Source: Saprospiraceae bacterium (lineage in GTDB: Bacteria > Bacteroidota > Bacteroidia > Chitinophagales > Saprospiraceae). Taken from it: a stretch of 57,553 bases of DNA. Position numbers and translations under genes: made by a program. The stretch covers positions 1 through 57,553 of the forward strand of contig JAIYAP010000080.1 in NCBI GenBank assembly GCA_027488935.1. Direction: 5' to 3'. Position 1 is the first letter of the stretch. Each line of letters begins with the position of its first letter. The notes beneath the pieces were generated by a model that was not told the origin of the DNA, did no database searches, and saw nothing but the letters and a program-made list of their open reading frames with translations. Below, piece by piece: positions 36,247 to 44,319 of the stretch.

Positions 36247-36903
36247 ATGAAACTACCGCTTTTTTTGGGCCTTTTACTGCTTTTGGCCGTAATAACTACC
36301 CCTTTTTGTACCCGCGAACACATCCAGGACCTAAGCGGGGTTTGCTTCGAAAGCAAAGTGCTCCCCGTTTTTCAGTCTAATTGCACCCAAAGTGGTTGTC
36401 ACAATAGCCAGGACAGAGAAGCCGGTTATGACTTTACGACCTATGAAAGTATTGTAAAAAACGGCATCCAACCTGGCGATTACCGTAAAAGCGACGTGTA
36501 CCGGGTGATGGTCGCAGTGGCAGGTCGCATGCCACCCGCTCCCTACAACCGGCTCAGCGATGCGCAATTGACCAATGTGGCTCAATGGATTAACGACGGC
36601 GCCTTAAATACCACTTGCGTGGATACGATGACTTGCAACACTACGGATACTAAATATAGCACGGCCGTAAAACCCATCCTCGATACCTATTGTAATGGCT
36701 GCCACGGAACGGCTTCAGGCTCAGGCAACATCAGTTATGCCACTTTCAGCGGGGTAAAAGCCACGGTTTCGGATGGCACCCTCCTGCAATCGATTGAACA
36801 TACCGGCGGCATTTCACCCATGCCTCAAAACGGCAATAAACTGTCCGATTGCAATATTTCCATCATCAAAGGCTGGATCGATGCCGGCGCGCCCAATAAC
36901 TGA
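36247..36903 (+). CDS. Cytochrome c-like lipoprotein with two heme motifs (one CX4CH)
   Basis: This 218-residue protein has an N-terminal hydrophobic segment ending in TTPFC, a possible lipobox. Two cytochrome c-like modules follow: VFQSNCTQSGCHNSQ contains CTQSGCH (CX4CH) and DTYCNGCHG contains CNGCH (CX2CH). A Met in each, in GRMPPAP and GISPMPQNG, can serve as the distal ligand. It is related to planctomycete-type cytochrome c domains (PSD). It likely carries electrons in the periplasm. The DUF5777 gene follows after 18 bases. Confidence 0.85.
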   Translation: MKLPLFLGLLLLLAVITTPFCTREHIQDLSGVCFESKVLPVFQSNCTQSGCHNSQDREAGYDFTTYESIVKNGIQPGDYRKSDVYRVMVAVAGRMPPAPYNRLSDAQLTNVAQWINDGALNTTCVDTMTCNTTDTKYSTAVKPILDTYCNGCHGTASGSGNISYATFSGVKATVSDGTLLQSIEHTGGISPMPQNGNKLSDCNISIIKGWIDAGAPNN

Positions 36904-36921
36904 CCCTAAAACTTAGACAAA

Positions 36922-37824
36922 ATGAGAATTTCAATATACATCCTGCTGCTGCTTTGTCTTGCCGGACAAGCCCAGGCACAGAAAAAAGACCCCAACGAAG
37001 ATCTACTCAGCCTCCTGGGCGAAGATCAAACCACGGAACACGTCCAATATGCCTTCAAAAGTCCAAGGGTGATCAATTCCCACAGCATGGAAATGCTGCA
37101 CAAAGGGACGATGGATTTTCGCATTTTACACCGATTTGGTCCTGTTTCTGGCGGCGCTTACCAACTTTTCGGGCTCGATCAAGCCAGTATGCGGCTTGGC
37201 CTCGATTATGGCATCAGCCCGAACTTTATGATTGGTGTGGGCCGAAGCACCTCCAAAAAAGAAGTAGACGGTTTTGTCAAATACCGTTTTTTGTGGCAAT
37301 CAACCGGTAAAAGAACCATGCCCGTTTCGTTGGTGTGGGTGAGTGGTATTACCATCAATGGCCTGAAAGATGTGACCGGGGTGGAAACGATCCCAACCAC
37401 TTTTTCACGACGCCTGGGTTATTACCACAGTATCATCCTTGGCCGTAAATTCAATGAATGGGTTACCGTACAATTTGCGCCGACCCTTGTACATAATAAT
37501 ATCGTAGAAAATAACCTGACACCCAATGATTTATTCGCAATCGGTTTTGGCGGCCGGGTAAAAGTGACCAAGCGCATGGCGATCACCTGGGATTATAGTT
37601 ACCTGCTCAACCGGTTCCCCGCTAATGTCAATTACAACCCGCTTTCGATTGGAGTGGATATCGAAACCGGTGGTCACGTGTTCCAACTGCACTTTTCCAA
37701 TGCAACCGGTATGAATGAACGCGCCTTTATTACCGATGCAAATGGCAACTGGTTTAAAGGTCAAATTCGATTCGGATTCAACCTTTCGCGGATTTTCCAG
37801 ATTGTGAAACCGCAGGAACTATAA
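36922..37824 (+). CDS. DUF5777-family outer-membrane beta-barrel-like protein
   Basis: The 300-residue protein begins with signal peptide MRISIYILLLLCLAGQAQAQ. The mature part alternates polar and hydrophobic residues typical of a beta-barrel (GGRVKVTKRMAITWDYSYLL, FQLHFSNATGMNERAFI) and includes LHKGTMDFRILHRFGPVSGG, which I link to DUF5777. In other Bacteroidota, DUF5777 genes lie next to cytochrome-like and YceI genes, as here. The role is unknown; it may carry redox partners or lipophilic quinone-like substrates across the outer membrane (inference). A good terminator follows. Confidence 0.8.
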   Translation: MRISIYILLLLCLAGQAQAQKKDPNEDLLSLLGEDQTTEHVQYAFKSPRVINSHSMEMLHKGTMDFRILHRFGPVSGGAYQLFGLDQASMRLGLDYGISPNFMIGVGRSTSKKEVDGFVKYRFLWQSTGKRTMPVSLVWVSGITINGLKDVTGVETIPTTFSRRLGYYHSIILGRKFNEWVTVQFAPTLVHNNIVENNLTPNDLFAIGFGGRVKVTKRMAITWDYSYLLNRFPANVNYNPLSIGVDIETGGHVFQLHFSNATGMNERAFITDANGNWFKGQIRFGFNLSRIFQIVKPQEL

Positions 37825-37897: not shown

Positions 37898-37925
37898 TTT
37901 TACAATTCCTTTACATCGTTTTACA
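37898..37925 (+). promoter_or_regulatory. Three direct repeats of TTTACA, candidate winged-helix regulator site
   Basis: TTTACA occurs at 37899-37904, 37910-37915 and 37920-37925, spaced 11 and 10 bases. Direct repeats of about one helical turn are the usual binding mode of OmpR/PhoB-type winged helices, such as the C-terminal domain of the regulator at 39092. They stop about 32 bases before the -7 element, a normal place for an activator. The link is inference; AT-rich repeats could be chance. Confidence 0.4.
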
Positions 37926-37956
37926 CCCAAAAAACGCCCGGAATCATGACGGCTCC

Positions 37957-37964
37957 TACATTTG
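37957..37964 (+). promoter_or_regulatory. -7 promoter element of the lipoprotein/regulator operon
   Basis: TACATTTG is an exact TAnnTTTG match, 31 bases before the ATG at 37995. No strong -33 element is seen, which fits an activator-dependent promoter. Confidence 0.55.
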
Positions 37965-37994
37965 TTCCATTGTTTCACCAACCACTACAAAGTC

Positions 37995-39071
37995 ATGCAA
38001 ATCCATTTGATTGCCTTGTTAATATGTCTCCCTTCATTCTATTCCTGTCAGCAAGACCCCTTATCGGTCCAATCCCTGACGGCGAATCTCGGACAAAGCG
38101 CCGATAAAAACATGGAGGACGATGACGAACCCGACCCCGCAGCCACCTTGAATGTTATTTTTAAATCGGCGGATACAGGGGAAACCTGGCAGGATATCAG
38201 CGCCGGATTGCCCAATAGTATTTTCGTTGACGGCCTAACTTTCCAAAACAACACCCTCTTCGTATCGACCGAAAAAGGCTTGTACCACATGCGCACCAAT
38301 GTTTCCAAACCAACTTGGGAAAAAGAACTTTTCTTATACGGTCCTGTTTATGAATTGGTTTCAAATCCAAAAGGTATTCTTGCATGCGCGTATAATTCGG
38401 GTATTTTTCAAAACCTGAGTGGTACCGATATTTGGAAAGTACTCAGCAACAACTTGAAAGACAAAGCGATCCGCACAGCGATGTTCACCGCGGAAAATAC
38501 CTTGTTAGTGGGTACCGATCACGGCATTTTTAAATCAGTAAATGAGGGCAATAGCTGGAAAGCAGTGTATGAAGGCGGTATGATCTTCAATTTTGTGGAG
38601 ATCGATGGTGCCTTGATTGCAGGCGGGGAAAAGGGTGTTTTGCGCTCTACGGATGGCGGCGAAACCTGGGTTACCTCTTTGTACGAAAATATTATGTCCA
38701 AAAACACGGGACGTTTAGACGATCAGTTGTTCACCATCCAGGGCACCGAGGATATTGAAAAACCCAATCCGGGTGGCATTACCAACCGTTTGCGCGTGTC
38801 AAAAGACGGCGGAAAAAATTGGCAACGCCTGGAAAACAGCCTCTTCCCGATTCAGGATCAGTACGATATGGACGAAAGTTTGGCCGGTACCAAGGATCTT
38901 TTTGATATGGCGCAAGTGGGTAAGTATTTGTTTTGCAGTTTTGATACTGGCATTTACCGCACAGCCGACCAGGGCAAAACCTGGCAATTGGTCTTCAACG
39001 CCAAAGGAATGTCTTTCCGAATGTATGTTTCAGGTAACGTAATTTATGCCATACCGAGCGGTGGCTGTTAA
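37995..39071 (+). CDS. Lipoprotein with BNR/Asp-box beta-propeller repeats
   Basis: I take the ATG at 37995: MQIHLIALLICLPSFYSC is a lipoprotein signal with Cys at about 18, whereas the longer frame adds eleven unlikely residues. The 358-residue product has five Asp-box (BNR) repeats: SADTGETWQDI, SVNEGNSWKAV, STDGGETWVTS, SKDGGKNWQRL and TADQGKTWQLV. Together with the intervening YxNTLFV-type strands they point to a sialidase/sortilin-like propeller, without clear sialidase catalytic residues, so a binding role is likelier. It lies 20 bases before the membrane-anchored regulator at 39092. Confidence 0.82.
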   Translation: MQIHLIALLICLPSFYSCQQDPLSVQSLTANLGQSADKNMEDDDEPDPAATLNVIFKSADTGETWQDISAGLPNSIFVDGLTFQNNTLFVSTEKGLYHMRTNVSKPTWEKELFLYGPVYELVSNPKGILACAYNSGIFQNLSGTDIWKVLSNNLKDKAIRTAMFTAENTLLVGTDHGIFKSVNEGNSWKAVYEGGMIFNFVEIDGALIAGGEKGVLRSTDGGETWVTSLYENIMSKNTGRLDDQLFTIQGTEDIEKPNPGGITNRLRVSKDGGKNWQRLENSLFPIQDQYDMDESLAGTKDLFDMAQVGKYLFCSFDTGIYRTADQGKTWQLVFNAKGMSFRMYVSGNVIYAIPSGGC

Positions 39072-39091
39072 AAAAGTGCTATTTTTGAGGC

Positions 39092-39994
39092 ATGCGTACC
39101 GTCCGTTTTTTAAAAAATATGCGTTTTTGGCCACTTTTAGCCCTGTTTTTGGTTGCCTGGTTTTTGCCCGCGACGCCCAATGTGGCGCAAGATGATTTAT
39201 CGCCTGAAAAAGTGAATCTCGCGTTGCGCCGCACAGCCGATGGACTTTTGCGTGCCTCGGGCGATGGCAAAAGCCGCATTCCGGCGGTTAAGCAGGTGGA
39301 TCCGGAGGTTTGGCAAGTGATGCTGGAACATCCTTTTCAGTATGATTCGCTGCCGGCGCTTTTACAGGCCTCCCTGAATGTATACAACATCCAAACGCCC
39401 TATGAAGTGGCGGTGCGCAATTGCTTCGACGCCACCCTCGAACTGGGCTACCACCAATCGGATTATTTGGAACAAAAAAGCGTGCCTTGTGGCGGGCGCA
39501 TCATGCCGGAAGGTTGCCATTATTTAGAAATTACTTTTTTGGGCACAACGCCCCCTACCCCATCCTTTTGGGCCAATAAAGCCTGGATTATGTGGTTATT
39601 ATTGGGCATTTTGGCAGGTTTTGGTTTTTTCTGGTTGCAAAAAAAGCCAAAACCTGCCGCCTCAATCGCCAATGCTACTACCGACTGGCTGGAATTTGGT
39701 CAATCCAAATTGGATGTGGCCGGTCAGGTACTCCTGTGTGCGGGTACACGCGCGACGCTCACATTTCGGGAAACCAAATTGTTGCGGCTTTTTGCGGCAC
39801 GCCCTGACCAATTACTAGAACGCGATTTTATTTTGCAGGAAGTTTGGGCCGACGAGGGCGTTTTGGTAGGCCGCAGCGTCGACGTTTTTGTATCGCGCTT
39901 GCGCAAAAAACTTGCCGCCGATGTTACTGTTGGGATTGTGGCGGTGCATGGAGTTGGGTATCGGTTGGAGACTGGGAAGGGATTGACCCATTAG
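39092..39994 (+). CDS. Membrane-anchored transcription factor with periplasmic sensor and C-terminal OmpR-type winged helix
   Basis: This 300-residue protein has a hydrophobic N-terminal segment (about 11-27, FWPLLALFLVAWFLPAT) and a periplasmic domain of about 140 residues (ALRRTADGLLRASGDGKSR, HPFQYDSLPALLQASLNVYN). That domain has three Cys (NCFD, PCGGR, GCHYLE). A second helix (about 168-187, WIMWLLLGILAGFGFFW) leads to a cytoplasmic winged helix (LTFRETKLLRLFAARPDQLL, VGRSVDVFVSRLRKKL). It has no receiver domain, so it is a one-component transmembrane regulator. ToxR/CadC have the reverse order, winged helix first. The upstream lipoprotein is its likely partner. Confidence 0.85.
   Translation: MRTVRFLKNMRFWPLLALFLVAWFLPATPNVAQDDLSPEKVNLALRRTADGLLRASGDGKSRIPAVKQVDPEVWQVMLEHPFQYDSLPALLQASLNVYNIQTPYEVAVRNCFDATLELGYHQSDYLEQKSVPCGGRIMPEGCHYLEITFLGTTPPTPSFWANKAWIMWLLLGILAGFGFFWLQKKPKPAASIANATTDWLEFGQSKLDVAGQVLLCAGTRATLTFRETKLLRLFAARPDQLLERDFILQEVWADEGVLVGRSVDVFVSRLRKKLAADVTVGIVAVHGVGYRLETGKGLTH

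Positions 39995-42069: not shown

Positions 42070-44319
<2,250 letters not shown>

Follow-up and report, generated by a model that had tools for sequence, protein, structure and literature searches.

A putative transmembrane one-component activator of Saprospiraceae with a kinase-type sensor, an RprY-like winged helix and a three-repeat operator

The window, a stretch of 57,553 nucleotides of a Saprospiraceae bacterium (contig JAIYAP010000080.1 of assembly GCA_027488935.1), harbours a propeller lipoprotein gene followed by a gene for a membrane-bound regulator, with a three-repeat operator in front of the pair (Table 1). The explanation that best accounts for the data as a whole, and which we consider quite probable, is that the 39092 product is a transmembrane one-component activator acting via this operator and that the propeller is mainly an output. 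The comparisons described below suggest that the regulator switches on the adjacent lipoprotein gene and a few other envelope genes through the three-repeat site. Judging from the relatives of its two ends, the regulator is probably an abridged, single-protein form of a two-protein signalling system.

Table 1 Features of the regulator locus (positions in the window)
Feature	Position	Strand	Basis
Operator: three direct TTTACA repeats (37899-37904, 37910-37915, 37920-37925)	37898..37925	+	positions; kept upstream of partner genes
TACATTTG, Bacteroidota-type -7 promoter element, starts 31 nt past operator end	37957..37964	+	spacing scans of operator sites
Lipoprotein, 358 aa, five Asp boxes, beta-propeller	37995..39071	+	frame, Pfam, motif positions, predicted structure
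Membrane-anchored one-component regulator, 300 aa	39092..39994	+	frame, Pfam, protein search
First membrane segment, about residues 10-33	39119..39190	+	hydropathy, limits approximate
Periplasmic sensor domain, residues 34-155, histidine-kinase sensor homologue; Cys111, Cys133, Cys142	39191..39556	+	sequence comparison
Second membrane segment, about residues 160-183	39569..39640	+	hydropathy maximum for window from residue 164; limits approximate
OmpR/RprY-type winged helix, residues 219-292	39746..39967	+	Pfam, NCBIfam

The order of parts in the regulator can be read directly from its sequence: a membrane segment, a periplasmic domain, a second membrane segment and a C-terminal OmpR-type winged helix. 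This layout, with three cysteines in the periplasmic part, had been proposed in the initial annotation and was confirmed by hydropathy and by a Pfam Trans_reg_C match (1.1e-17); a fourth cysteine, Cys216, lies past the second hydrophobic segment. In regulators of the ToxR/CadC type the cytoplasmic winged helix is N-terminal and the periplasmic domain C-terminal. In the 39092 product, by contrast, Trans_reg_C covers residues 219-292 of 300, behind two membrane segments, and the sensor is of the histidine kinase kind; the inverted topology noted earlier was thus right, and the protein falls outside the ToxR/CadC family. The Pfam scan of the regulator gave nothing but Trans_reg_C above cut-off, and the protein lacks the HisKA/HATPase and receiver domains by which two-component and hybrid two-component proteins are recognized. 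A predicted transmembrane region and a predicted DNA-binding domain are, however, both present in the same protein, the combination by which transmembrane transcription regulators (TTRs) are defined where Demey et al. (2023, PMC10269533) introduce them.

ATG 37995 is the likely start of the lipoprotein, and its frame ends 20 nt before the regulator ATG. The protein has a lipobox (FYSC, with Cys18), a Pfam BNR/Asp-box match (1.3e-08) and five [ST]x[DN]xGxxW boxes at residues 58, 181, 218, 269 and 323; the reported succession of a lipoprotein with five Asp boxes and, 20 bases later, a membrane protein was borne out by the frames and the motif scan. An AlphaFold2 model of the lipoprotein, built with 14 sequences, had a mean pLDDT of 78.0, with values below 50 in 58 of 340 residues. 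By our reading of the predicted strand order it would form seven blades, the last one closed by an N-terminal strand. Foldseek comparison of the model with the PDB returned DAIP (5fzp, 6fhp) and sortilin as top matches (E 5e-12 to about 1e-8). With a lipobox and several S/T-x-D-x-G-x-x-W boxes in a propeller fold, the protein belongs with the Asp-box/BNR beta-propeller lipoproteins. All 14 aligned propellers end in the same two residues, Gly-Cys. The stretch 36247-37824, 5' of the operator, encodes a cytochrome c-type protein and, 18 nt further on, a DUF5777 membrane beta-barrel (1.8e-93).

Both ends of the regulator have relatives among two-component proteins. The periplasmic domain aligned with residues 26-158 of kinase P0003 of the same genome (hhalign 96.7%, E 4e-10, with a single kinase sequence as target), which carries HisKA and HATPase_c. 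For the winged helix the best NCBIfam model was RprY (71 bits; next 53.7). The RprY equivalog (NF051850) requires a whole-protein score above 370, and the regulator, with 71 bits from the winged helix only, is not itself an RprY. Kinases sharing the sensor stood directly beside a response regulator gene in five of five loci (L233-L237, of 21 kinase-sized places), and for these response regulators the best NCBIfam model was again RprY, at 213-243 bits, below the cut-off of 370, a shortfall due in part to truncation of the gene in the fetched stretch. The window's own genome encodes the kinase on one contig and the nearest RprY-like regulator on another. This response regulator scored 237 bits for RprY (below cut-off), and its winged helix was the best match to that of the membrane protein among eleven response regulators compared. 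Since the sensor resembles a kinase sensor and the winged helix resembles RprY, the two ends of a two-component system are present in one protein without the phosphotransfer parts. It is thus a kinase-sensor/response-regulator chimera, like Rsp, with a DNA-binding domain similar to that of the regulator of its related kinase.

The sensor cysteines follow a distinct pattern. Cys133 was present in all 45 periplasmic domains compared, and Cys111 and Cys142 were jointly present in 40 and jointly absent in 5, never one alone. From this we infer a C111-C142 disulfide next to a free Cys133 in a C-x-G-R-like motif. The predicted structure of the periplasmic domain is confident (pLDDT 90.9), and structure comparison of this model gave no clear structural relative.

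The three TTTACA repeats described earlier before the lipoprotein gene were found as stated, at spacings of 11 and 10. The operator was searched for with the pattern TTTTACA-N6-TTACA-N3-TTTTACA, which has 19 fixed positions in 28 bp. The window's 6.28-Mb genome has one exact match, that of the window itself, and two with 2 mismatches. Over the 37 same-genus genomes (own included) 92 matches with at most 2 mismatches were found versus 13 for a reversed-pattern control. The operator is therefore more than a chance occurrence. At the same threshold, sites were found in 38 of 60 genomes scanned (own included).

The geometry downstream of the operator is conserved as well. Within the 85 nt read past the operator, strict TAnnTTTG, the Bacteroides promoter element, starts at one place only: at 31-33 nt, in 44 of the 74 sites. 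Of the 79 sites with at most one mismatch, 66 have TTTG at offset 35 or 36, whereas each of the other 73 offsets has it 0.3 times on average. With 2-mismatch sites included, TTTG was at 35/36 for 38 of 41 propellers, 16 of 16 small proteins, 6 of 10 reg_prop lipoproteins, 3 of 4 TPR/S41 lipoproteins, 2 of 3 regulators, 1 of 3 serine hydrolases and 4 of 12 sites with another or no target; propeller, small protein and regulator were assigned by profile and the remaining classes by sequence motif. As several unrelated target families share this position, it does not merely reflect the descent of one promoter, and a TTTG fixed at 35/36 after the operator fits an activator. No -33 element stands out in the stretches read downstream of the operators, which fits activation and is also compatible with repression. 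The propeller ATG is mostly 66-76 nt past the operator, and this distance is more variable for other targets, partly from start choice.

When the 60 genomes, that of the window among them, were searched at the protein level, 32 had the regulator: 30 of the 37 genus genomes (own included), plus G044 and G045 from two other families. Relatives with names come from metagenome-assembled Saprospiraceae, Chitinophagales and other Bacteroidetes. Gene neighbourhoods were compared at 29 same-genus loci, the window included (G015 was dropped as a fragment, G023 is cut by a contig end and G005 was kept despite an internal stop). Within 1 kb of the regulator a propeller was found in 13 of these, a small secreted protein in 14 and either of the two in 25. 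An operator with at most 2 mismatches lay within 1.6 kb of the regulator in 26 of the 29, and in all ten further loci that remained of 22 after eleven were dropped as the same contigs as the G-genomes and one as a fragment. The ten comprise seven with a propeller, one with the small secreted protein and two, L114 and L122, with a divergent lipoprotein, which in L114 is a Reg_prop propeller. The propeller is upstream or downstream of the regulator depending on the locus. Among the 29 loci, no site was found near the regulator in G013 and G005, and G036 had only a 3-mismatch site; G004 has 2-mismatch sites only. The regulator match of G005 (G005:C5:62141-62926), with an in-frame TAG and no operator nearby, is perhaps a decaying copy. 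G045, of another family and with a regulator 29% identical, has a 1-mismatch site directly before the regulator.

Presence of the operator also follows presence of the regulator. Of the 36 same-genus relatives, 29 have the regulator and 7 do not; a site with at most one mismatch was found in 27 of the former and 2 of the latter (p 1e-3), these two genomes being 76% and 79% complete. For same-genus genomes at least 90% complete the figures are 21 of 22 versus 0 of 5 (p 7e-5); the genomes are related, so that in both comparisons counts are not independent and p-values are optimistic, and the absences may represent one clade. Six genomes with the regulator (G004, G009, G016, G031, G044 and G045) gave no propeller match at E <= 1e-10, where 34 of 44 propeller candidates were scored in G009, 34 of 50 in G016 and 34 of 41 in G031; the completeness of G009 is 82% and that of G016 84%. 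The association of operator and secreted partner with the regulator, together with the fixed spacing between repeats and promoter, makes the autoregulation proposed earlier for the pair likely. About 2 kb from the window's regulator, at 42070-44289 on the minus strand, a catalase-peroxidase-like protein is encoded, presumably KatG. A close homologue is found near the regulator in G004 (L075, also L118) and another on the G023 contig holding the regulator's end (L119), and in no other locus of L068-L129.

The downstream gene was read for every same-genus site with at most one mismatch and for a minority of the 2-mismatch and out-of-genus sites. Propeller lipoproteins, the small secreted protein, Reg_prop lipoproteins, serine hydrolases and other envelope proteins were found there. 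Propellers adjoining the regulator have an operator with the window's spacing upstream, and 8 of the 9 orphan propellers examined, whose fetched stretches contain no regulator, are preceded by an operator of their own. For the small secreted protein an operator was upstream in 13 of 15 entries (at most 2 mismatches, counted over the three hexamers); the remaining two, L080 and L095, have a site elsewhere in the locus. Members of this family are about 137 aa long (L085:8062-8469 plus 15 more entries, L121 duplicating L078), and the one scanned gave no Pfam match. A Pfam check of one example per class found Reg_prop in L114 (3e-38), the Beta-lactamase family together with TPR in L101 (4e-51), Peptidase_S41 with weak TPR in L176 (4e-16) and an outer-membrane barrel in L178 (3e-25). 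At L101:6160-6233 two exact operators stand back to back, one directed to a propeller and the other to a divergent Beta-lactamase-family (serine hydrolase) gene.

Within its own genome, the operon of the window is alone in having a close operator site. From a 2-mismatch operator at G000:C53:63855-63882 (L203:5856) it is 76 nt to a lipoprotein-like frame of 128 aa that has a reg_prop-type motif and is possibly a second target; the other 2-mismatch site (C62) has no likely target downstream. Two or more sites with at most one mismatch were found in 21 of the 36 same-genus relatives. The earlier description of a self-contained pair holds in that regulator and TTTACA repeats belong together, and is too strong for the family.

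Homologues are also found more widely in the phylum. When 395 phylum genomes (own included) were searched with a periplasmic-domain profile, 39 gave matches. Judged by the length of the open frame (282-325 aa), 27 of the matching places, in 25 genomes of six families, are one-component homologues; the remaining 21 are kinase-sized (414-438 aa). The winged helix was present in the 23 distant one-component loci aligned. Upstream regions were taken from these 23 and from G044 and G045; L216 was dropped as no frame was called, and second copies in G208 and G216 were left out. In 15 of these 25 regions a triple TT[TG]ACA at 10/11 spacing beat 99% of dinucleotide shuffles and 10 failed at this 1% level, by a score that was widened to TT[TG]ACA after the sequences had been viewed and was applied alike to the shuffles. 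The repeats of L218 and L223 beat 95% of shuffles, and all 17 better-scoring arrays point away from the regulator. Further up, before a small secreted protein, L209 and L211 have a site with 1 and 0 mismatches, respectively. Three TTTACA copies at 9 and 12 spacing, unrewarded by the score, are found in L213, L214 and L217, and the upstream regions of L210, L215 and L224 showed no clear array. Labelled by eye, the neighbours include a divergent Asp-box propeller (L213), a divergent serine-hydrolase-like gene (L221) and divergent proteins with reg_prop-like motifs (L223, L230). A picture of random neighbours and no shared promoter repeats across the homologues was looked for and not found. The assignment of the repeats to the membrane protein is supported: operator and secreted partner track the regulator within the genus, and arrays persist at many distant homologues. 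A bolder reading, rated at a little short of an even chance, is that this is a Bacteroidota family of collapsed two-component systems, in which a kinase sensor is fused to the winged helix of its RprY-like regulator, with triple TT(T/G)ACA operators, an interchangeable set of envelope targets and the invariant, probably unpaired Cys133 as a possible thiol/redox switch.

In the mechanism proposed, a periplasmic domain of the Bacteroidota kinase type is joined via a membrane helix straight to an RprY-like winged helix and, as kinase and receiver domains are lacking, there is presumably no phosphotransfer. On a periplasmic signal the regulator would bind the three TTTACA repeats on one face of the DNA as a head-to-tail array. 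The repeats end 31 nt before the -7 element, from where the bound protein would help RNA polymerase to start transcription. The transcripts would cover the propeller lipoprotein and the regulator's own gene as one operon, with the propeller mainly an output that may also have a feedback role in sensing. The link of the winged helix to the TTTACA motif is drawn from their association across genomes. It is conceivable, and we rate it as the least probable of the alternatives, that the array is read by another factor, e.g. an RprY-like response regulator, the membrane protein only riding along in the operon. Such a regulator, with a related winged helix, exists in the window's genome. However, a site with at most one mismatch was absent from all five same-genus genomes of at least 90% completeness without the membrane regulator, and the arrays follow the membrane regulator into other families and gene orders.

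Repression instead of activation of the secreted genes is unlikely, slightly less so than a foreign reader of the array. Winged-helix regulators can activate or repress. The Neisseria chimera Rsp is described as a repressor of pilA (PMC10269533). The operator, however, does not overlap the start site: it precedes the -7 element by a constant 31-32 nt, and no clear -33 element is apparent. Somewhat less improbable, though still doubtful, is that the propeller acts as a ligand receptor contacting the periplasmic domain, as ToxS and VtrC do for ToxR and VtrA; the initial annotation had assigned it such a receptor role. Propeller and regulator are adjacent and probably co-transcribed in many genomes, with the propeller on either side, a divergent propeller accompanies a homologue in another family (L213), and the invariant C-terminal Gly-Cys of the propellers could pair with the invariant Cys133. 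The receptor role is nevertheless not supported, in view of the six regulator genomes without a propeller match, the orphan propellers with their own operator and the other partners behind the operator; unrelated envelope proteins use the same promoter layout. An activator with the propeller mainly as output thus remains the preferred reading.

Literature searches of titles and abstracts returned no description of this regulator family or its operator. Among known systems RprX/RprY is close in that the winged helix is nearest to NCBIfam RprY and a kinase with the same sensor adjoins an RprY-like regulator in L233-L237. The 39092 product differs in having no kinase or receiver domain, and every RprY score seen was below the family cut-off. 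HTCS and SusR of Bacteroides are likewise single membrane proteins with a C-terminal DNA-binding domain, but HTCS have kinase and receiver domains and the DNA-binding domains of HTCS and SusR are of other kinds. In HTCS the reg_prop propeller is the sensor part, whereas in the present family propellers of the reg_prop and Asp-box types are lipoproteins in their own right, encoded downstream of the operator. PilR is of the NtrC type. Its DNA-binding domain joined to the PilS receptor constitutes Rsp of Neisseria gonorrhoeae (PMC10269533). Rsp is presented there as a kinase sensor region joined to the portion of a response regulator that binds DNA. The 39092 product is built alike, the DNA-binding domain being C-terminal in both; the two differ in parent system and DNA-binding fold, and the 39092 family spans at least six Bacteroidota families with a common operator type. 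The TTRs as defined in the same source are alike in joining a transmembrane region and a DNA-binding domain, and an origin of membrane-tethered regulators from two-component systems is named there as a possibility (PMC10269533).

In this compact family the operator is defined and its distance to the promoter fixed, each genome has only a handful of close sites, and kinases related to the regulator are encoded in the same genomes. This makes it testable how a membrane-tethered protein finds and fires its promoter, and whether such regulators came from two-component systems. It also gives the Asp-box and reg_prop lipoproteins a regulatory context.
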